A DNA stretch of 11,117 nt from Pseudomonadota bacterium (GTDB lineage Bacteria; Pseudomonadota; Alphaproteobacteria; Rhizobiales; Beijerinckiaceae): NCBI GenBank assembly GCA_028876585.1, contig JAGWRL010000220.1, positions 1-11,117 of the forward strand. Direction: 5' to 3'. Below, piece after piece: positions 2,145 through 11,117 of the stretch (position 1 is its first letter; each line of letters begins with the position of its first letter). The position numbers were made by a program, and so were the translations under genes. The notes beneath the pieces were generated by a model. That model saw only the letters and a program-made list of their open reading frames with translations. It ran no database searches and was not told the DNA's origin.

Positions 2145-3401
2145 ATGAACGTACTTGTTTTGGGGGCCGGCGCTCGCGAGCACGCGATCGCCGCCGCGCT
2201 GGCGGCTTCGCCATCGCTCGATCGGTTATTCGTCGCCCCGGGAAATCCCGGCTGCGAGTCGATCGCGACCCGGCTCTCGGTCACGGATTCCGCTTCGATT
2301 ATCGAAGCATGCCGCGCGCACGATATCGCTTTCGTGATTGTCGGCCCCGAAGCGCCCCTGGTTGCGGGCGTGGTCGATGACCTCGCGGCGGCCGGGATTG
2401 TCGCCTTCGGCCCCAGCCGCTCCGCCGCGCAACTTGAAGGGTCGAAGGGCTTCACCAAGGATTTCTGTCGAGAATTCGGCATCCCGACCGCCGCCTACCA
2501 GCGCTTTCGCGACCGTGCGGCGGCGCTCGCCTATATCGCTGCGGAAAGCGCCCCGATTGTCGTCAAGGCGGACGGTTTGGCCTCGGGAAAGGGGGTCGTC
2601 GTCGCGGCGACGACCGCGCAGGCGGAAGCCGCCGTCCTTGCGCTCTTCGACGCGGATCCCGACGCGGATTGCGTCGTCGAGGTGTGTCTGGAGGGGGAGG
2701 AGGTTTCGTTCTTCGCACTGTGCGATGGCGAACGCGCGGTTCCCTTCGGCCACGCGCAAGACCACAAGCGGGTCGGCGAGGGCGACACCGGGCCGAACAC
2801 GGGCGGTATGGGGGCCTATTCGCCAAGCCCGCTAATGTCAGCGGAAATGACCCGCAAGGTCATGACCGAGATCGTGCAGCCGACGCTTGAGGGCATGCGC
2901 CAGCGCGGCGCGCCGTTTCGCGGAATCCTGTTCGCCGGCCTGATGCTGACCAAGGAAGGCCCGCAGCTTCTCGAATATAATGTGAGGTTCGGCGATCCCG
3001 AGGCGGAGGTGGTGCTGCCGAGGTTTCGCGGCGACCTGCTGCATTGGCTTTGGGCCGCCGCCTCCGGCGCGCTGCCTGAGCAAGAGCCGCCTTTCGCCGC
3101 CGAACACGCGCTAGCCGTCGTGATGGCGGCGAAGGGCTATCCCGGAGCGCCATTGACGGGCGATGAAATAGGGGGCCTGCAACGGGCGTCCTCCATTCAA
3201 AACGCCCGCATCTATCAAGCGGCGACCAGGCGCAGCGGCGAGAAGATCATCGCCGACGGCGGGCGGGTGCTCGTGATCGTGGGTATGGCCGCCGACCTGC
3301 AAAGCGCACGCGACACCGCCTACGAGGCGGTGCGCGCCATCGACTGGCCAACAGGCTTCTTTCGCCGCGACATCGGCGCGCGCGCCCTCAACCCCGGCTA
3401 A
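2145..3401 (+). CDS. purD: Phosphoribosylamine--glycine ligase (GAR synthetase)
   Basis: Catalyses the second step of de novo purine synthesis in the cytoplasm: phosphoribosylamine + glycine + ATP give glycinamide ribonucleotide + ADP + phosphate. The 418-aa protein matches the usual family length of about 425. Visible motifs are the N-terminal MNVLVLGAGAREHA fold, APGNPG (31-36), VGPEAPLVAG (66-75), the ATP-grasp segment with GSKGFTKDF (99-107), VVKADGLASGKGVVV (139-153), HAQDHKRVGEGDTGPNTGGM (203-222) and the family signature EYNVRFGDPEAE (277-288). The frame is open for 167 codons upstream, but the family start is the ATG at 2145, with AGGGA (2133-2137) seven bases before it. It stands alone rather than in a pur cluster. 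Its TAA (3399-3401) interleaves with the stop codon of convergent fmt (3398-3400). Confidence 0.97.
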   Translation: MNVLVLGAGAREHAIAAALAASPSLDRLFVAPGNPGCESIATRLSVTDSASIIEACRAHDIAFVIVGPEAPLVAGVVDDLAAAGIVAFGPSRSAAQLEGSKGFTKDFCREFGIPTAAYQRFRDRAAALAYIAAESAPIVVKADGLASGKGVVVAATTAQAEAAVLALFDADPDADCVVEVCLEGEEVSFFALCDGERAVPFGHAQDHKRVGEGDTGPNTGGMGAYSPSPLMSAEMTRKVMTEIVQPTLEGMRQRGAPFRGILFAGLMLTKEGPQLLEYNVRFGDPEAEVVLPRFRGDLLHWLWAAASGALPEQEPPFAAEHALAVVMAAKGYPGAPLTGDEIGGLQRASSIQNARIYQAATRRSGEKIIADGGRVLVIVGMAADLQSARDTAYEAVRAIDWPTGFFRRDIGARALNPG

Positions 3402-4348
3402 GCCAGCGACGAATGCGGTGCAAAAGCGACGCCGATTGGCAGAACCCCAGAGCGCATGAATTCGTCGCCCGACATGACGTTACGCCCGGCGCGCTGGACC
3501 AGAAGCGCCCGAATGGCGCCTCGTCCGCAGGCGACCGTAAACCGCTCGTCGAGAATCTCACCGGCTGCGGCGCCGCTCCGATCGATAAACTCTGCCCGCA
3601 ATATCTTGAGCCGTTCCGGCCCGCCATCCCCGGGGAATATCGTGAAAGCGCCGGGAAATGGCGACAGTCCGTTGATCCGCCGCCGCACAAGGTCCGCGTC
3701 GGCGGTCCAATCAATCGCCGCCTCCGACTTGTCGATCTTGTGCGCATATTCAACGCCCGCAGACGCTTGCGGCGTAAAGTGCAACCTTCCTTGAACCAGC
3801 GCGCTCCAATTGTCGCCCAGCGTCTGCGCCGCAAGTTGAGACAGGCGTGAAGTCAGTTCCCCCGCCGTCTCGGTCGGCGAAATGGCTGCGCGCATCTCGC
3901 CGGCTATGGGGCCAGTGTCCAGGCCGACCCCCATCTTCATGATCGAAACGCCCGTCTCCGCGTCACCGGCCATGATCGCCCGCTGCACGGGAGCGGCGCC
4001 GCGCCATCGCGGCAACAGCGAACCGTGCAGATTGAAGCATCCCAAGCGCGCGGCGGCGAGCGCCTCGGCGGGCAGCAGCAATCCATATGCAGCCACGATC
4101 GCAATATCGGCGCGCAACTCCCGCAGCGATTGCTGAATCTCCGCATTGCGCAGGGTCAGCGGCGCCTCTACGCGCAGACCCAAATCCTCGGCCGCTACAT
4201 GCACCGGAGTTTTTTTGATCTCCAATCCGCGCCGTCCGCCTCGCTTAGGCGCCCGTGTATAGACCGCGACGATTTCCGCGCCGGTCCTTGACAGCGCCCG
4301 CAAGATCGGGACAGCAAACTCCGGCGCTCCCATGAAAATGGCTTTCAT
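3398..4348 (-). CDS. fmt: Methionyl-tRNA formyltransferase
   Basis: Formylates Met-tRNA(fMet) with 10-formyltetrahydrofolate, producing the bacterial initiator tRNA in the cytoplasm. The 316-aa length is normal. The N-terminal formyltransferase domain (about 1-205) begins MKAIFMGAPEFAVP and carries the catalytic Asn106, His108 and Asp144 at the same numbers as in E. coli, within NLHGSLLPRWRGAAPVQRA and MKMGVGLDTGP. The C-terminal OB-like tRNA-binding domain (about 206-316) holds NGLSPFPGAF and the GRNVMSGDEFMRSG segment. The ATG at 4348 fits the family; the frame extends to 4414 but adds nothing family-like. fmt is usually next to def; here it is isolated, convergent with purD (overlapping stop codons) and divergent from ybgC. 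No Shine-Dalgarno precedes the ATG and the promoter is unusually close, so the mRNA may be leaderless. Confidence 0.97.
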   Translation of the reverse strand: MKAIFMGAPEFAVPILRALSRTGAEIVAVYTRAPKRGGRRGLEIKKTPVHVAAEDLGLRVEAPLTLRNAEIQQSLRELRADIAIVAAYGLLLPAEALAAARLGCFNLHGSLLPRWRGAAPVQRAIMAGDAETGVSIMKMGVGLDTGPIAGEMRAAISPTETAGELTSRLSQLAAQTLGDNWSALVQGRLHFTPQASAGVEYAHKIDKSEAAIDWTADADLVRRRINGLSPFPGAFTIFPGDGGPERLKILRAEFIDRSGAAAGEILDERFTVACGRGAIRALLVQRAGRNVMSGDEFMRSGVLPIGVAFAPHSSLA

Positions 4349-4416: not shown

Positions 4417-4827
4417 ATGCCCGAAAACACCCAACGGCTGACGGTGCGCGTGTATTACGAAGACACGGACTTTTCAGGCCGCGTCTACCACGCCTCGTAT
4501 CTTCGCTTCCTTGAACGCGGCCGGACCGAGTGGTTGCGAGCGTTTGGCCTCCAACACGATGATCTGGCCCAAACTAAGGGAATTGCCTTCGCGGTTACGA
4601 AGCTTCAGATAGACTTTTTCGCCGGCTCGACGATCGACGACCTGCTGATGGTCGCCACGAGCCTACACGAATTGCGGGGGCCGATTCTGACCTTCCAGCA
4701 AATAGTCACCCGCGCGACCACGACAATCGCCAGTAGCCTGGTTGACGTTGTAACGATCAAAAATCAGCGGGCAGCGCGTCCGCCTCGCGAATTGCTCGCG
4801 GCCCTGGCGCAGCTCAAGCGTCAATAG
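4417..4827 (+). CDS. ybgC: Tol-Pal-associated acyl-CoA thioesterase YbgC (hotdog fold)
   Basis: A 136-aa hotdog-fold thioesterase of the YbgC/FadM group that hydrolyses acyl-CoA thioesters in the cytoplasm. In E. coli YbgC is linked to the Tol-Pal envelope system and phospholipid metabolism. The N-terminal signature is RVYYEDTDFSGRVYHASYLR, with the catalytic Asp18 at the E. coli position and Tyr24/His25 following; the FLERGRTEWLR helix comes next. The length matches the family. In most proteobacteria ybgC is followed by tolQ-tolR-tolA-tolB-pal. Here it is followed by a gene on the opposite strand that overlaps its 3' end by 14 nt, then by fibre-like genes. Either the tol cluster is elsewhere or foreign DNA separates them; the window cannot decide. 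Confidence 0.92.
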   Translation: MPENTQRLTVRVYYEDTDFSGRVYHASYLRFLERGRTEWLRAFGLQHDDLAQTKGIAFAVTKLQIDFFAGSTIDDLLMVATSLHELRGPILTFQQIVTRATTTIASSLVDVVTIKNQRAARPPRELLAALAQLKRQ

Positions 4828-5164
4828 CCCGGTCAATTCGATCGCTTAGCGCCGATAGACGAACTGTCAATCGATCCTCGAGGTCACGCAAATCTGTTCG
4901 GGTCGGCATGGCCCCCATCGCTTCCCGCAGTCGGAAATGGTCTTCGTGCAACTGACCAAAGCGCTCGGCAAGTCGAAGCATCGTCGCGTCATTGGCATTG
5001 CGCATGGCCTCGAGTTCTTCTTGGTGCCGTTCGTGGTTCGCCTCCAATTTCTCGATCCGCATCATCAGACGCCACACAAATGCGCCTATGCTTGCGACAA
5101 TCGTCAGTGAGAAAGTGAGGGCCCATTCCAGGATGCCCCAAGCCTGACCCTCACCGGAGTTCAT
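4814..5164 (-). CDS. Small single-pass membrane protein with coiled coil, function unknown
   Basis: A 116-aa protein with a short N-terminus, one transmembrane helix at about 13-33 (EWALTFSLTIVASIGAFVW), then a charged heptad-rich region at about 35-83 and a second one at 90-114, both likely coiled coils. The positive residues after the helix (RLMMRIEK) suggest that the C-terminal part is cytoplasmic by the positive-inside rule, which argues against an inner-membrane spanin. The ATG at 5164 was chosen because it directly precedes the helix; the upstream extension to 5248 is Arg/Ser-rich and unlike the rest. Small proteins of this shape are common at the ends of phage tail-fibre clusters, often near lysis genes, and this one lies downstream of the fibre operon on the same strand. 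A phage origin is inference; no family was recognised with confidence. Confidence 0.65.
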   Translation of the reverse strand: MNSGEGQAWGILEWALTFSLTIVASIGAFVWRLMMRIEKLEANHERHQEELEAMRNANDATMLRLAERFGQLHEDHFRLREAMGAMPTRTDLRDLEDRLTVRLSALSDRIDRAIDA

Positions 5165-5434: not shown

Positions 5435-7954
5435 CTACAAAACGTTGTTCAAATTGTAGAAGGCGGCCTGATTGCGCCGTATGGCGTCAATTTGAACGGG
5501 CGACAGCGCCTGACGAGCCAATATGACCTCGCAAATGTCGCCCGGCCAACCGAAGCCGCCGGCGGCGCTGTTGCCGATGATCAAATTGTTGGCGTCGACA
5601 ATCGCCCCGCTTGGTTGAGTCGAGCTCTGATAGGACTGCGCGCCACCATCTACCCCCAATGCCGGCAAGTTAGACAGAGACGCGTAGTTGTAGGCGACGT
5701 CAAAGATATGCCCGCCGCTAGTAGGCATCAGAGTGGAGGAAACCCAGGCGCCGACCGTTCCGGAAGCGTCCATCGTAAATTGCGGAAACCCATAGCCCAA
5801 CGCATAGGAACCCGAAAGTTCCCAGCCCGTGCCGCCGGCGACCTTTGACATTAGCCGCATCGAATTCGAGATCGCCGCTGTCCTGCTCGTAACGGCCGAC
5901 GCGAAACCGCTCGTTGCGAACAGCCCGTTCATGGCGGAGTTGGAAGTCACGGTCAGATTTGCATTTCCGCCATTGCCCCAGACTCCGCAGGTCGCGAAAT
6001 TCAGGTTCGAACCTTCGATGACAATTTGCGGTTGCGTAGCGGAGGTTGCGTTAGCCGCATTGTTCGAGTTCCCAGATTGGTCGTACTCCATCGTGATGAA
6101 ACACGACGTGTTGGCGCAGAATGCAGTGAGAGCAGATTTGTCGGTGGCGCCCACCGAGTTCGAATATAGGTCGATCGCAGCAGAGTCGCTTGCGCGCCGA
6201 ATATTGCACAGCGGACCCTTATATCCGTACGAGAGCCTGCGTGCGCAGGAATAGGCTGCGGAAACATTGAACGTCGAATTCAGCATATCGAGAGGACCGC
6301 CGCCATTCGTCGGGACACCGGCGGATATTCCCGATACCAGCGTAGAGGCCGGTGCGTTGAACTGCCACGCAGACGGCAGACTCACTGCGCCGTCGAGTGT
6401 CCAGAGATTAGCCGCGCCAATGGTGAATAGGGAAGGCTTGGCGGTGGTGTACCCAACAGATATATTTGAATTGTGCGCGGTGACCGCCGTTATGCCTGCA
6501 TCCACGCTCAAGATCGCCGTACTGACCGTGCTGAGCGGGTCAACGATCGTCAACCCACTGACATTGGGTGTTGGATTGGAACCGGTCAACTGAACGTCAG
6601 ATGTGGCCGCCGAAGACTCGCATTCGATTTCGAGTGTCTCGTTGATGTTGTGGAGCGTGAAGGTTGCATTGTTGTCAAACATCGAAACGCAGGGCCCCGT
6701 CGCGAGTTGGGCGAGGTACATATGCACCGTTCGCAGGCCTTCCACGGAACCGATCCACAAGGGGGCGCCTTGGTACGCGCTGCCGTAGTATCGCAGCGAG
6801 CCACCGATAATGTTGTTTTCAGTAAATGTGTAATAGGTATCCGCCGGCCAGTTGACCGATTGGAAGGACGACGATACCCCCCAATGATTCTGGCCGTCCA
6901 TCACCATGGCGAACTGCCCGATATTCGTGACGCTGACCCTGAACCCGGAACCCGCGCCGAGCGTCGAACCGGCGGCGGTTAGCGAATCGCCGATTGCGTA
7001 TTGCTTGCCTTGATTGGTCAGCGTGACGCTCGTCACGGCTCCGCCGGAGACAATCACATTTGCGATTGCGCCGGCGCCCGTGGGCGAACCCGACAGAACG
7101 ACTCCGGTATAGGCGCCGTTGGTGTAGCCGCTGCCCCCGGAAATGGGGCCTAGGGCACCCACAACGCCAAGCGAGGCGCCGTTGTTTCTTACGATCGGTG
7201 AGTAGTAGGTCGTCGACTCCGAGGCGGCCGAATAAAGACCAGCGAACGAGAAGGAACCAGTGATTTCAAGTCCGTAGTGGGTGTGTATGCAGCAGGCGAT
7301 CGTCGCTGGCGCCACGTTTCCTTCTTGCAGCCCGATCATCGGCGGAGACGACGCCGAGCCGACGATCGTCACCTTGTTGAATTGGATGTTGAGAGAGCCG
7401 AGCGCATCTAGACATATATTGCCGGACCCCGAGCAACTCAGAGTGAGGTCTTCGATGAGAAGCCGCGCGCCGCCGCCGAAGCGGGTGAAACCGGTCGCGT
7501 TGACCTGCGTCACCGAGCAGGCGACGCCGTTGGCGCCAAAGCCGCCGACGACCCGCACGGGTTGATTGGACAAATAGGCGGTCGAGGCGCGCGCCGCCGC
7601 GAGCGCGGAATTCAGCGTCGCGGTGTCGCTTGCGATCGATCCCGTGCAACCGCCAAAGTCGGCGATATTGATCACTGTCTCAGGCGTCGTCTTTAACGAG
7701 CCGGTAGGGGAGACGCCGCCCGTCGAACCCGTTCCGCCTTCAGAGGTTGGAAGCACGGTCGTCAAGCCGGACAAAGACGTAATGTCGCTGTTGGCGCCGG
7801 CCGCGGCCGCTCCCAGATTCAATCGGGCGGCCGCAGCATTGTTTGCGCCAGTGCCGCCGTCCTCGACCTTGAGGACGGGCGGCGACACCTGGCCAAACGC
7901 GGGGAGGGCGCACAGGGACATCAACAGTGTGAATAGGAGCAAGGGACGGTTCAT
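5435..7954 (-). CDS. Exported phage-fibre-like protein: GGTG repeats, beta-helix, GH54-like C-terminal domain
   Basis: An 839-aa protein. Residues 1-21 are a Sec signal peptide (MNRPLLLFTLLMSLCALPAF). Residues 27-80 carry two phage tail-fibre repeats: VEDGGTGANNAAAARLNLG, then TSEGGTGSTGG. About 95-560 is rich in short beta/turn segments typical of a right-handed beta-helix, with a Gly/Ser-rich insertion at about 262-345. Residues 565-839 resemble the catalytic domain of fungal GH54 arabinofuranosidases: AAYSCARRLSYGYKGPLCN, then FCANTSCFITMEYDQSGNSN, then a late IIGNSAAGGFGWPGDICEV strand. The GH54 catalytic acid and the vicinal Cys pair, as I remember them, are not found, so a binding role is likelier than catalysis. 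There are 14 cysteines after the signal. Start: ATG 7954 begins the signal peptide and overlaps the preceding gene's TGA as ATGA. Receptor or glycan binding is inferred. Confidence 0.8.
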   Translation of the reverse strand: MNRPLLLFTLLMSLCALPAFGQVSPPVLKVEDGGTGANNAAAARLNLGAAAAGANSDITSLSGLTTVLPTSEGGTGSTGGVSPTGSLKTTPETVINIADFGGCTGSIASDTATLNSALAAARASTAYLSNQPVRVVGGFGANGVACSVTQVNATGFTRFGGGARLLIEDLTLSCSGSGNICLDALGSLNIQFNKVTIVGSASSPPMIGLQEGNVAPATIACCIHTHYGLEITGSFSFAGLYSAASESTTYYSPIVRNNGASLGVVGALGPISGGSGYTNGAYTGVVLSGSPTGAGAIANVIVSGGAVTSVTLTNQGKQYAIGDSLTAAGSTLGAGSGFRVSVTNIGQFAMVMDGQNHWGVSSSFQSVNWPADTYYTFTENNIIGGSLRYYGSAYQGAPLWIGSVEGLRTVHMYLAQLATGPCVSMFDNNATFTLHNINETLEIECESSAATSDVQLTGSNPTPNVSGLTIVDPLSTVSTAILSVDAGITAVTAHNSNISVGYTTAKPSLFTIGAANLWTLDGAVSLPSAWQFNAPASTLVSGISAGVPTNGGGPLDMLNSTFNVSAAYSCARRLSYGYKGPLCNIRRASDSAAIDLYSNSVGATDKSALTAFCANTSCFITMEYDQSGNSNNAANATSATQPQIVIEGSNLNFATCGVWGNGGNANLTVTSNSAMNGLFATSGFASAVTSRTAAISNSMRLMSKVAGGTGWELSGSYALGYGFPQFTMDASGTVGAWVSSTLMPTSGGHIFDVAYNYASLSNLPALGVDGGAQSYQSSTQPSGAIVDANNLIIGNSAAGGFGWPGDICEVILARQALSPVQIDAIRRNQAAFYNLNNVL

Positions 7955-8559
7955 TGCGCAATCACCACATATCCGGAGCTGTTGATGAACGCTTGTCCGC
8001 TTGCGACAGGCGCCTGGGTCCCTGTTTGCACGGGAAGGGAGGCGAACAGCGCTTGCGAGAGCGTGACAAGTTGGCTGGACGATAGGCCTGTCAACGCCGC
8101 AGATATTGCTGAGGGTTGCAGCGCCTGGAACGCCGTGGCGAGCGCCGCGGGTAAGGGCGAGGCGATCGATCTCGGAATCGGGTCCGGCGCCACGAGCAGC
8201 GCAACGCGCTGAACTTGCGGCGAACCGACGGCGAGAGTGGAATATGCGAACAACTCGCGGGTGAAGAGGCCATCGCTCGCGGTCAGCGACATCGAATACA
8301 AGCCCGACGGCCAAATCGAATTCGCGGCGGCAAGCGCCGTAATGACCAGGAGGTTGTTTGATGGACCCGTAACGACGATCCCGCCGCCAGCCGAGGTGAG
8401 GGTGGCGAATGTGTCAACATTCAGTGTGAAAGTGAGCCCGGACAGGTTGATTGGCGTGACGCCATCGTCAAGATAATACGCGATTGAGAGCTGCCAATCC
8501 TCATTCGGCTGGACGCCGTCAGTGACGCGAACCAGAGGCAATAGAGTTAGCGTTGACAT
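7951..8559 (-). CDS. Phage baseplate/fibre-type protein (beta-rich N-terminal domain), putative
   Basis: A 202-aa protein without a signal peptide or membrane segment and without cysteines. Residues 1-110 are beta-rich: NEDWQLSIAYYLDDGVTPIN, then LSGLTFTLNVD and SGLYSMSLTASDG. This resembles the immunoglobulin-like N-terminal domains of phage baseplate/upper-fibre proteins (BppU-N type), by pattern rather than by proof. Residues 125-175 are Ala/Leu-rich, likely helical, and the tail LPVQTGTQAPVASGQAFINS followed by SGYVVIAQ is a sequence style common at the ends of phage tail proteins. The ATG at 8559 has AGGA upstream at a somewhat long distance. Its TGA overlaps the ATG of the 839-aa fibre (ATGA), implying translational coupling and a shared complex. 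It is followed by the exported fibre yet itself lacks an export signal. Confidence 0.75.
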   Translation of the reverse strand: MSTLTLLPLVRVTDGVQPNEDWQLSIAYYLDDGVTPINLSGLTFTLNVDTFATLTSAGGGIVVTGPSNNLLVITALAAANSIWPSGLYSMSLTASDGLFTRELFAYSTLAVGSPQVQRVALLVAPDPIPRSIASPLPAALATAFQALQPSAISAALTGLSSSQLVTLSQALFASLPVQTGTQAPVASGQAFINSSGYVVIAQ

Positions 8560-8758
8560 CGATTATCGTCTTTCCTGACGCGGGTTTGGCCTCGTCTACG
8601 ATGCTGGTGGGAGTTGTGCGGCGTCATTGGGCGATTTCCGCCGTGCGGCGGCGCAGGCCGCCCCTTGCTGCGAACACGGGCGCGGCGAGCGTCAGGGGCC
8701 GGCTCCGCGCCAAAATCTGGCGAACCGCCAAGCGCTCCACACCCTCACAGCCTGGCGA
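8560..8758. other. 199-nt gap inside the fibre operon
   Basis: This is the only sizeable gap between genes of the operon. It holds no hairpin with a U-tract. On the minus strand a 38-codon frame (GTG 8740 to TGA 8624) lies in the same frame as the upstream 136-aa gene, directly after its stop codon, and is followed by a 26-codon ATG frame overlapping as ATGA and running into the next gene's start. Neither has a convincing ribosome site; they may be decayed coding sequence. Confidence 0.3.
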
Positions 8759-9169
8759 TCAGGCTGGCGGCGCGCCTGTCAAAATCGTCGAGGCCCGGGC
8801 GGAGGTGATAAGCCCGATGGAGGCAAGATAGTTGACGCCATTGATGACCTCGGTATTGCCGAGGTCAACTTCGCCTGCTCCGCTAGCCATGAGGACGAAC
8901 AGGCGCGTCTGGGTGTCGGAGGCGTTGACGATCGCCGCGCGCTCAGCATTGGTGAACAAGCCAAAGAACTGCAGGAACGTCAGGCCGGTGATCTGATACT
9001 GTGGCGGGGCTGTGGTCGCGGCGAATGCTCCGCTCGAGTAGGTCCATCCGATTTGCGCGGTATCGCTGGCGACGATCAGCGATCCGTCGCCAGGATTGAA
9101 AGCGGAGGGGTCGGCGATGACGATGTTCTCGACAATTCCGTTGATGATTTGCGCGCAGCGTTGGGTCAT
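8759..9169 (-). CDS. Phage tail-type small protein, putative
   Basis: A 136-aa protein with no signal peptide. Residues 1-50 (AQIINGIVENIVIADPSAFN, then SLIVASDTAQIGWTYSSGAF) follow the pattern of a widespread small phage protein, V.NGIV.NIV...... followed by DTAQIGWTY, found beside tail-fibre genes. The C-terminal half (FLQFFGLFTNAERAAIVNAS onwards) looks helical and is of the type predicted for chaperone-like or fibre-assembly proteins; this is inference. The start is well defined: its ATG shares one base with the TAA of the preceding glycine-rich gene (TAATG), and GGAG (9178-9181), lying within the last codons of that gene, sits eight bases upstream. A perfect 9-bp inverted repeat (8845-8853/8859-8867) lies in its 3' half; its meaning is unknown. 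Confidence 0.75.
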   Translation of the reverse strand: MTQRCAQIINGIVENIVIADPSAFNPGDGSLIVASDTAQIGWTYSSGAFAATTAPPQYQITGLTFLQFFGLFTNAERAAIVNASDTQTRLFVLMASGAGEVDLGNTEVINGVNYLASIGLITSARASTILTGAPPA

Positions 9170-10200
9170 TAGAAATACTCCACAATGATGGCATATCCCG
9201 CGCCGCCTGCGCCTCCGGCCGCTGCGGTTCCGCCATTTTGCGCCGAACCGCCGCCGCCGCCGCCGCCGCCAGGAGCGCCGCCGGCGCCGCCCGCATATCC
9301 AAGGGAAAGGCCGGAGGCTCCGCCGCCGCCGCCGCTCCCGACTGCATAGAGCGCCGCCCCCGTTCGGCCGGCCGCGCCAGAGGCGCTCACGCCGCCAGCT
9401 CCCTGAAGACCGTAGCTGAGCGACCCTGGGCCGCCGCTTTGCCCGGCATAGGCGAGGTTGGCGGCGGCAATTCCCCCCGCGCCGCCACCGCCGCCGCCGC
9501 CGCCGCCGATGTTGGCGCCGCCGCCATAGGTGGTGGAATTCGTGGTGTTTCCGCCTGCGCCGCTGCCGCCGTTAAAACTGATTGAGGAAGCGTTCCCGCT
9601 GGCGCCGCTGGACCCGCCCGCAGACCCGCCATAATTGCTGGAGCTTCCCCCCGTTGCGCCCGTCGCGGCTTGCCCGGCGCCATAATTGGCCCCGCCGCCG
9701 CCACCGCCAGAGGGGCCGCCCAATTGGCCTCCCGCGCCGCCTCCCGCGCCAAACGCCGTGAGCAATGACCCAAAAGTCGTATTTCCGCCACTCCCGCCCG
9801 TCGACCCTGATGCTGTTGATGTCGTCGCCGCCGCGCCGCCCGAACCGCCTGCGGCTATGCCGACAGTTTGCGAGGGGCCGATCTGCGCGGCGGGGAATGA
9901 TGCGAAAGCCGTTCCCGCGCCGCCGCCGCCGCCGCCGCCAGAGGCCGCGCTCGCGGTCGCTTGCAAAGCTCCCCCGCCTCCACCGCCGCCTCCGCCAACC
10001 AAATAGACGTCGACTTTCACCATGCCGGGAGAAGGCGTGTAGGTTCCTGAAGCCAGGAATGTGACGATCTTGGTTGGGGCGGCCCCGCTCGTTGCGCTGT
10101 TCGAAGGCCCGACCGGACCTGAAGGAAACAACGCCTGCGCTTCCGCGCTAAGCGAGAGCGCGAGCCATGACGATACAGCGAAGACGGTTTTCCTAAACAT
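9169..10200 (-). CDS. Exported glycine-rich phage-fibre-like protein
   Basis: A 343-aa protein. Residues 1-23 are a Sec signal peptide (MFRKTVFAVSSWLALSLSAE, cleavage near AQA). Residues 43-70 (TKIVTFLASGTYTPSPGMVK, then VDVYLVGGGG) match the start of the glycine-rich domain known from many phage tail fibres and bacterial surface proteins, in which a short strand leads into polyglycine repeats. Residues 69-335 are Gly/Ala/Ser/Asn repeats, including runs of eight to nine Gly. The C-terminus GSAQNGGTAAAGGAGGAGYA, then IIVEYF, closes the domain. Stacked polyglycine-II helices, as in phage S16 gp38 adhesin, are a plausible fold (inference). No Cys is seen in the mature part. The ATG at 10200 begins the signal peptide, one base after the previous gene's TGA. 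Its closest visible relative is the partial glycine-rich gene at the right end. A role in adhesion or receptor recognition is likely but unproven. Confidence 0.82.
   Translation of the reverse strand: MFRKTVFAVSSWLALSLSAEAQALFPSGPVGPSNSATSGAAPTKIVTFLASGTYTPSPGMVKVDVYLVGGGGGGGGGALQATASAASGGGGGGGAGTAFASFPAAQIGPSQTVGIAAGGSGGAAATTSTASGSTGGSGGNTTFGSLLTAFGAGGGAGGQLGGPSGGGGGGANYGAGQAATGATGGSSSNYGGSAGGSSGASGNASSISFNGGSGAGGNTTNSTTYGGGANIGGGGGGGGGAGGIAAANLAYAGQSGGPGSLSYGLQGAGGVSASGAAGRTGAALYAVGSGGGGGASGLSLGYAGGAGGAPGGGGGGGGSAQNGGTAAAGGAGGAGYAIIVEYF
9171..9270. repeat. Direct repeat copy A (3' end of glycine-rich gene)
   Basis: This stretch matches 10596-10692 at a constant offset of 1425 bp, falling to 1422 after a one-codon gap. 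The first 13 bases (9171-9183) are identical, and the block around 9224-9246 is nearly so. It encodes the shared C-terminus SAQNGGTA...GGAGG...IIVEYF and the ribosome site of the following gene. Confidence 0.75.
9250..9270. repeat. (GCC)7 trinucleotide tract
   Basis: Seven perfect GCC units encode glycine (GGC) on the minus strand. Further seven-unit tracts occur at 9488-9508 (CCG phase), 9919-9939 and 10672-10692, with a five-unit tract at 10741-10755. Unit-number changes would keep the reading frame and alter only the Gly-run length. Confidence 0.8.
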
Positions 10201-10201
10201 G

Positions 10202-10594
10202 TCACTTCGCCCTGTAATAGGAGACGTCGATCGCTGGCGATCCGCTTTGCGCTGTGAAAGACAAAGCCGACATCGGCCCCGAATAGGCGAAACAACTGCC
10301 GCTACTGATTGGAATACCAAGCGATGGCGTGGCGACGGTCCCGTCGTCGCGATATCTGACGGCGGAACCCTCGACGCATATTTCCGCCAGCGTCGCGCCG
10401 TTTGGGACCGTCAGCGTCGTGTTCGTCCCAACAGCGAGCGCCATTTGCGACGCGCCAGCCGAGACGTAGAGATAGATCGGAGCAGACCCAGATAGGACCG
10501 TCCCCGCGCTGTCGATGTGGGTTTGCGCCTGCGCCGGGCCGCTCGGCGCGAATAGCAAAGCAATGGCGATAAGGCCGTGTCTGAATCTGACCAT
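10202..10594 (-). CDS. Small exported phage-type protein, predicted beta-sandwich
   Basis: A 130-aa protein. Residues 1-24 are a signal peptide (MVRFRHGLIAIALLFAPSGP, then AQA). The mature part contains the pattern VPNGATLAEICVEGSAVRYR, then DDGTVATPSLGIPISSG, then a late SYYR. This matches a widespread small phage/prophage protein with a V..GA.......G..VRYRDDGT.PT...G......G motif that is predicted to be beta-rich; it is usually cytoplasmic-type, without a signal. Cys73 and Cys101 could pair after export. The ATG at 10594 overlaps the preceding gene's TGA as TGATG. GGAG (10603-10606), inside that gene's last codons, lies eight bases upstream, fixing the start. The long upstream extension of the frame is Arg-rich shadow of the glycine-rich gene. 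Function unknown; a fibre accessory protein fits the context. Confidence 0.8.
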   Translation of the reverse strand: MVRFRHGLIAIALLFAPSGPAQAQTHIDSAGTVLSGSAPIYLYVSAGASQMALAVGTNTTLTVPNGATLAEICVEGSAVRYRDDGTVATPSLGIPISSGSCFAYSGPMSALSFTAQSGSPAIDVSYYRAK

Positions 10595-11117
10595 CAGAAA
10601 TACTCCACGATAATGCAGAAGCCCGCCCCGCCCGCGCCGCCTGAGCCCGCGGTTCCACCGTTTTGCGCGGAGCCGCCGCCGCCGCCGCCGCCGGCGGGAT
10701 AGCCGCCGGCGCCGCCAGCTCCCGCAGCGGTTAACGAGGAGCCGCCGCCGCCGCCGCCCGGACCAACCATGAACGGCGCCGTTCCGGCCGTAACGCCGGA
10801 AGCCCCAGCCGCACCCGCCGCGCCGCCGGCGCTGAAGGAAAAGGCCCCCGCGCCCGCCTGCGCCCATCCGCTATTGCCGCCGCCGGCCGTCACATTGGTC
10901 GCGCTGATCCCGCCGCCGGCGCCGCCGCCGCTCGGCCCGAACAAAGACGTGCCGCTGGCCGCGCCCGCCGCGCCGTTGACGCCGCCTGCGCCTCCGCTGC
11001 CACCGCCGGGATTGGTCACCGTGGCGCTTGCGGCGCCGCTTCCCCCAGCGCTTCCGCCAATCGAAGCCAAGCCGCCGGCGCCTGGCGTCGCGCTGCTGAC
11101 GAGGCCGCCGCCGCCGC
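10594..11117 (-). CDS. Glycine-rich phage-fibre-like protein, C-terminal part (5' end outside window)
   Basis: The minus-strand frame is open from the window edge to TGA 10596-10594, giving 173 complete codons plus a partial one. It is composed of Gly/Ala/Ser/Thr repeats with polyglycine runs and ends SAQNGGTAGSGGAGGAGFCI followed by IVEYF, almost the same C-terminus as the 343-aa protein two genes downstream. The two are paralogues, and their 3' DNA aligns over about 100 bp. A TTG at 11070 lies in frame but there is no reason to start there; a signal peptide and the SGTYTP-type domain start are expected beyond the window. Its last codons contain the ribosome site for the 130-aa gene, whose ATG shares a base with its TGA. 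Confidence 0.78.
   Translation of the reverse strand, partial: GGGGLVSSATPGAGGLASIGGSAGGSGAASATVTNPGGGSGGAGGVNGAAGAASGTSLFGPSGGGAGGGISATNVTAGGGNSGWAQAGAGAFSFSAGGAAGAAGASGVTAGTAPFMVGPGGGGGGSSLTAAGAGGAGGYPAGGGGGGGSAQNGGTAGSGGAGGAGFCIIVEYF
10596..10692. repeat. Direct repeat copy B (3' end of partial glycine-rich gene)
   Basis: Partner of 9171-9270. It contains the same 13-base block at its left end (10596-10608) and its own (GCC)7 tract at 10672-10692. The match supports a tandem gene duplication within the operon. Confidence 0.75.

Follow-up and report, generated by a model that had tools for sequence, protein, structure and literature searches.

Predicted Sec export of tail-fibre-like proteins encoded at the distal end of a phage-derived, putatively gene transfer agent-type element

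Fibres of tailed phages are as a rule produced and put together within the cell, and particle assembly is taught as a cytoplasmic process. Phage products that use the general secretory (Sec) route include filamentous phage coat proteins, the Lom and Bor proteins of lambda, and spanins. In the gene transfer agent (GTA) of Rhodobacter capsulatus (RcGTA), the fibre Rcc00171 is bound to the baseplate, and the passages of the source available to us do not mention exported fibres (PMC7296036). Here, we analysed contig JAGWRL010000220.1 of assembly GCA_028876585.1 over its whole length of 11,117 bases (the window), in which a minus-strand operon encodes fibre-like proteins of 839, 343, and 130 amino acids (aa), designated p839, p343, and p130. 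What sets this operon apart is that, in the setting of a tailed phage, proteins resembling fibres are predicted to be exported by Sec; in Sec use they would resemble the phage products named above, but those are not tail-fibre-like proteins of tailed phage. The open-licence literature searched gave no report of Sec-exported tail fibres by title or abstract start, which is weak evidence. Our favoured reading, to which we assign a probability of roughly 0.45, is that the operon would be the distal host-recognition end of a GTA-type element, with p839, p343, and p130 being exported, oxidised, and joined to particles at lysis.

Export signals were scored by a rule demanding a positive n-region, a hydrophobic core of 8–14 residues, and small residues at −3/−1. 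The 839-, 343-, and 130-aa proteins passed, and the 202-aa, 136-aa, p144 (116-aa), fmt, and ybgC products failed; this agrees with the initial annotation, which had placed signals on the former three and on neither the 136- nor the 202-aa protein, with lengths and places that were correct. Two further window proteins also passed, and on inspection by eye we took both for secreted proteins of the host. As a control, shuffled N-termini of p839, p343, and p130 passed in 35, 49, and 48 of 1000 trials, respectively. For p839 (5435–7954, minus strand), the rule and the alignment place the predicted signal at 7892–7954 (minus strand; MNRPLLLFTLLMSLCALPAFG↓QVSPP), with an A-x-G↓Q cleavage site (AFG↓Q). 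The predicted signal of p130 (10202–10594, minus strand) occupies 10526–10594 on the same strand (MVRFRHGLIAIALLFAPSGPAQA↓QTH) by the rule and ends in AQA↓Q, while p343 (9169–10200, minus strand) is cut by the rule at LSA↓E and, judged by eye, more likely at AEA↓Q. ATG starts were taken for all three frames, the longest forms of which begin further upstream; for p839, the start chosen is backed by an ATGA in which it overlaps the stop of the 202-aa gene, and the same 4-base overlap was found in four relatives' loci (L001–L004, of which L002 and L003 look identical).

The predicted signals were conserved among relatives. In the p130 family, 57 of 64 relatives passed, AxA being the commonest site (38/57). 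In the p839 family, 35 of the 50 listed relatives passed and most of the 15 misses were late starts or fragments; when confined to intact N-termini (a conserved mature start preceded by at least 20 residues, with the window's own sequence counted), 27 of 28 passed, the sole miss being P0023. The remaining matches (P0051–P0097), in which mostly the GGTG part is shared, passed in 10 of 47 cases. Relatives of p343 with a signal were present in loci L171–L174. None of the 120 listed capsid relatives (of 3348) passed, and in the fetched element loci the distal genes passed in 22 of 25 rows compared with 0 of 90 for core virion genes (counts that include the window and reference copies as well as the seemingly identical pair, and that leave out three rows truncated by the end of a contig). 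Likewise, p144 passed in 0 of 9 cases, its N-terminal stretch not being a cleavable signal by the rule. Same-strand open reading frames (ORFs) passed at 44 of 260 around signal-bearing p130-like genes and at 26 of 451 around other p130-like genes. Mean pairwise identity across 29 p839 sequences was 0.34 for residues 1–21 and 0.77 for residues 22–60; thus, the letters drift while the signal character stays. The signal was also kept in P0036, P0048, P0049, and P0050 although the stretch after it differs; P0045, likewise divergent after its N-terminus, has none. A chance origin of the signals was ruled out by the controls and this conservation. Where classical tail fibres are cytoplasmic and carry no export signal, the p839, p343, and p130 families carry predicted ones, and Sec export of the three proteins is well supported as a prediction. 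Several p839 relatives among P0026–P0032 have a cysteine near the signal end (such as ASAC or ATAC) in a lipobox-like setting, and some p839 relatives might be lipoproteins.

Cysteine content was examined alongside the signals. After the signal cut, p839 has 14 cysteines, p343 none, and p130 two, and the signal-less 202- and 136-aa proteins have zero and one; the recount bears out the numbers first given for p839, p130, and the signal-less pair. All 14 mature cysteines of p839 were present in 29 of 29 aligned sequences (28 of 28 with a residue there for C422), the alignment having used 29 of 35 rows, with six dropped and four distant ones of these set apart. In two of the distant sequences (P0045 and P0048), C656 and C808 are jointly missing. 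Both p130 cysteines (Cys73 and Cys101) were invariant in 45 of 45 aligned sequences. Among viral p130-like loci, 92 were found and 80 kept; from these we dropped nine duplicates, one locus lacking the motif, and one whose N-terminus was cut, which left 69 distinct genes. Comparison of homologues with and without signals, as suggested in the initial annotation, placed the cysteine pair solely in signal-bearing genes: 13 of the 69 have both cysteines and all 13 bear a signal, while among the 40 signal-less genes none has both and 10 have one (Fisher p 1.8e-6, a value that overstates independence because the sequences are related). A second comparison was provided by Gordonia phage Lucky10 gp27 and Arthrobacter phage Bolt007 gp33 (two of 16 matching phage records examined), which share ~38–41% identity with p839 over the start of its glycoside hydrolase family 54 (GH54)-like domain and, unlike p839, have no cysteine at the aligned places; Lucky10 gp27 shows no signal by eye, and its one cysteine lies away from these places. 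The absence of cysteine pairs from related domains without a signal supports a signal–cysteine linkage in both the p130-like and the GH54-like comparisons.

The domains of the exported candidates are those of fibres and of a carbohydrate-active enzyme. p839 comprises its signal, GGTG tail-fibre repeats, a beta-rich middle, and a GH54-like C-terminal domain. The N-terminal GGTG repeats resemble the tail fibres of PDB 8vbx (gp47) and 7z47; p839 in addition has a predicted Sec signal and 14 invariant cysteines. Residues 551–837 have the fold of the GH54 catalytic domain as in alpha-L-arabinofuranosidase B (AbfB; PDB 1wd3, 6sxr, 6sxt), with which p839 also shares an FCANTxC segment. Different from AbfB, the domain is fused behind fibre repeats, C570 and C583 have no cysteine counterpart, and the sequence match covers the first part only (Pfam profile positions 12–89 of 315). 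Jelly-roll matches to receptor-binding domains of clostridial neurotoxins were also observed and reflect a common lectin-like fold. p343 is a glycine-rich fibre-like protein (phrog_863, E 3e-13). p130, of the RYRDDG family, has a beta-rich domain with Cys73 and Cys101 behind its predicted signal (structure model with a predicted local distance difference test score of 84); weak cupin-like beta fold matches (best E 4e-3) and the lack of any PDB sequence match up to E 1 leave it with no fold assigned. In a search of phage records, p130, p343, and the 136- and 202-aa proteins were without a match (p343 is of low complexity and may have been filtered), and two other p130-like proteins matched one uncultured record only.

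The genomic context of these genes in relatives is that of a phage-derived element. Full-length p839 was found on one genome contig (L001, in a two-pattern peptide scan) and in at least three IMG/VR records, which end 3–6 bases past the p839 match. On L001, the genes after p839 are ybgC and fmt, matching the window except for p144. Upstream of p839, the IMG/VR records carry head protease, capsid, neck, portal, tail tube, and tape-measure genes; a terminase was seen in G003 and G004, the latter also with an Mtd_N fibre gene. Among the 11 genomes of the genus to which that of L001 belongs, a capsid gene was found in eight (a short fragment in G001) and a good fmt match in nine, in all nine of which element genes adjoin fmt (p144 only in G197). 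In G099 and G142, the distance from capsid to fmt is ~24–26 kb on the same contig and strand. Several relatives at the same site also have baseplate genes of RcGTA type, none of which lies within the window; their proteins (from L157, L162, and L173) have Pfam domains named after or found in RcGTA, namely GTA_TIM (E 1.5e-94), DUF2460, phiJL001_Gp84_N/BR0599, Rcc01698_C, and hub domains. GTA_TIM was detected in 9 of the 11 genomes of the genus; of 14 control genomes, Caulobacter alone had a match. A further likeness to RcGTA is that no integrase was seen by eye in the opening genes on the left side of the element in G031 and G001, where no profile search was made. The left flank differs between the two: by eye, G031 has host-type genes left of the terminase and G001 has atp-like genes and a p324-like gene. 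The operon combines fibre sequence with the place of tail fibres after tail or baseplate genes, as seen in relatives. Loci L171–L173 have the order hub, Mtd_N fibre, p130, glycine-rich fibre, 136-aa homologue, and endolysin, which resembles the first half of the window's operon, and L172 and L173 also encode a signal-bearing 680-aa, GDSL-like protein. Since the p130/136-aa module of L171–L173 and the p839 module are seen apart elsewhere, the window combines two fibre modules.

These contexts bear on the initial annotation, which had proposed that a phage host-recognition module was converted into an exported adhesin or surface coat, with the 136- and 202-aa proteins as vestiges or helpers. Its export part stood up, through the conserved signals and their linkage to cysteines; the idea of a stand-alone module turned adhesin operon was not supported in the form given, as relatives have capsid and tail genes to the right, the side on which the initial annotation had said that a prophage would refute it and where the 11,117-base contig itself ends first, and an isolated fibre operon was ruled out. 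Nor do the 136- and 202-aa proteins look like vestiges, because both are conserved with their neighbours (58–65% identity in four loci, L171–L174, and 61–67% in four records, respectively). The element in relatives leans against a lone adhesin operon, and p839 element types that lack baseplate genes lean back towards the initial proposal.

Within the window, the operon spans 4814 to the window end and is transcribed in the order glycine-rich gene (cut by the window end), 130-aa, 343-aa, 136-aa, 202-aa, 839-aa, and 116-aa. Down to the 839-aa gene, the successive junctions are a 1-base overlap, a 1-base gap, a 1-base overlap, a ~200-base gap, and the 4-base ATGA overlap. The signal-less 136- and 202-aa proteins are encoded at 8759–9169 and 7951–8559 (both minus strand). 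Outside the gene set of the initial annotation are two neighbours: (i) a first glycine-rich fibre-like gene (10594–11115, minus strand), known from its 3′ 173 codons with the 5′ end outside the window, whose terminus ...GGAGTATTTCTGATG overlaps the 130-aa gene start; and (ii) p144 (4814–5164, minus strand), a 116-aa protein with a hydrophobic N-terminal stretch, which is the element's last gene and adjoins ybgC, its relatives within the genus being 44–54% identical and in the same place. The ybgC-like gene (4417–4827, plus strand) forms the element boundary, and the fmt-like gene (3398–4348, minus strand) is its fixed neighbour; together with amidase and purD-like genes, these make up the left 4.8 kb of the window, which we take from their sequences to be housekeeping-type genes. 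The 136- and 130-aa genes begin at a near-identical junction, GTGGAGTATTTCTxATG (9160–9180 and 10585–10605), where a glycine-rich gene ends (...VEYF-stop), making up a repeated fibre-plus-follower cassette. One terminator-like site was found compared with 6.6 in shuffles, on the coding strand ~30 bases past the 116-aa gene, and scans of Rfam and for tRNAs gave no matches.

Starting from the conserved signals and cysteines and the fixed place of the element, which the sequences establish, we infer the following course for the favoured host-recognition reading. A group of genomes, probably alphaproteobacterial to judge from the RcGTA-type genes and from the GTA_TIM match confined to Caulobacter among the controls, would share a phage-derived, GTA-type element at the ybgC/fmt site. 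The core virion proteins of this element would stay in the cytoplasm, as would the 136- and 202-aa proteins, while p839, p343, and p130, encoded in the same tightly packed operon, would be exported by Sec and cut by signal peptidase. p839 and p130 would then be held by disulphides formed during a stop in the periplasm, and the exported proteins would most likely be parts of fibres that bind receptors or modify glycans and that come together with the particles at cell lysis, perhaps through the 202-aa protein as an adaptor. The overlapping gene junctions and the endolysin beside the fibre genes in L171–L173 fit late, lysis-linked expression.

Several observations weigh against this reading. The signal test was a home-made rule, not SignalP. 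With respect to the cysteines, p343 has none at all, 16 of the 29 signal-bearing viral p130-like genes have neither cysteine at those places, and the C103 column of p839 is lysine in P0045 and P0048, a cysteine either lost or misaligned there without its partner. Full-length p839 occurs in only 1 of the 11 genus genomes. Capsid identities correlated weakly with those of Fmt+YbgC (rho 0.42, p 0.12), the corresponding values for p144 being rho 0.52 and p 0.046 (15 pairs from six genomes in each case). Of three promoter-like sites in the window (1.2 +/- 1.2 in shuffles), one, at 8497–8470 on the coding strand, falls within the 202-aa gene, such that p839 might be expressed apart; these sites rest on the sigma-70 consensus only. 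G002/G003 and G004, which have p839 on single contigs, pass from the tape measure directly to the fibres without baseplate genes (L003:8964–9396 and L004:6971–7266), while G099, G142, G031, and G184 have baseplate genes and lack the 839-aa gene. Some baseplate genes of G001 are on another contig, C217, adjoining or not; either the baseplate genes of G002–G004 also lie elsewhere, or these elements have ceased to make normal tails. The weakest step is the joining of exported fibres to particles, for which no precedent was found in the literature searched.

With two p839 element types lacking a baseplate on the contig, a cell-surface or an enzyme role has also to be considered. Under the former, the exported fibres would remain on the producer as an adhesin, a coat, or a receptor mask (superinfection exclusion) while the rest of the element decays. 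The predicted signals, the missing baseplates, the cysteines retained by p839 relatives, and the promoter-like site upstream of p839 would all suit such a conversion, as would G122, whose partial copy beside fmt has no capsid match. We nonetheless regard it as unlikely: no translocator, two-partner secretion, autotransporter, or anchor domain was found in p839 by a Pfam search (E <= 1), the genes are closely packed into one operon with phage genes that lack signals, and G002–G004 keep capsid, tail tube, and tape-measure genes together with p839. Under the latter, p839 and the GDSL-like protein of L172/L173 would be soluble secreted enzymes that loosen exopolysaccharide for particle exit or access to neighbours, with no need to bind particles. 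The GH54 fold would fit a putative enzyme, but the Pfam match to the catalytic domain is partial, the GGTG repeats resemble tail fibres, and p130 matched no enzyme family in profile and PDB sequence searches, so that secretion purely for glycan modification seems quite improbable. Uncleaved docking of the hydrophobic N-termini inside the particle, with no export, would agree with the helices that begin both models (residues 3–21 in p839 and 7–14 in p130) but is very improbable given a stretch that diverges while keeping its charge, hydrophobicity, and small-residue site, the predominance of AxA sites in p130, and a cysteine pair found only with a signal.

Other features of the element vary among relatives. 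The G122 copy (L169:1–8746, contig C89) still has tail tube, tape-measure, and p144 genes as well as a portal accompanied by a small ORF, and is probably degraded. In G158, four GTA_TIM matches lie on four contigs (C799, C646, C434, and C284), and perhaps this genome holds several such elements. Different from the gene order of RcGTA, the portal position varies in the element and several copies are present in G003. Full or 3′ portal copies were observed in G003 and also in G002 (L104:3260–13095 and L003:784–5265); most have differing C-terminal extensions after a NPYHDEAGRFTDA-like stretch, with small ORFs (154, 107, 134, and 109 aa) alongside, one of which matches DUF7945. By sequence, this has the look of an array of polymorphic-toxin/immunity cassettes carried by a phage portal, similar to the MuF toxins (PMC5576092).

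Of the 69 scored viral loci, 29 had a p130-like gene with a signal, on contigs of up to 93 kb, and among the matches listed six loci (L178, L179, L180, L182, L204, and L218) have, after such a gene, a longer ORF that also bears a signal and is in most cases fibre-like. A broader proposal, which we put forward tentatively and as somewhat doubtful, is that tailed phages and GTA-type elements have a widespread periplasmic assembly branch, in which fibres would be exported by Sec, oxidised, and fitted at lysis to particles built in the cytoplasm. Conserved Sec signals on fibre-like proteins, with the p130-family cysteine pair seen only where there is a signal, would mean that part of the host-recognition apparatus is made outside the cytoplasm, or else that phage fibres have been turned into surface proteins or secreted enzymes; either outcome would alter the annotation of such genes in phage and GTA genomes.

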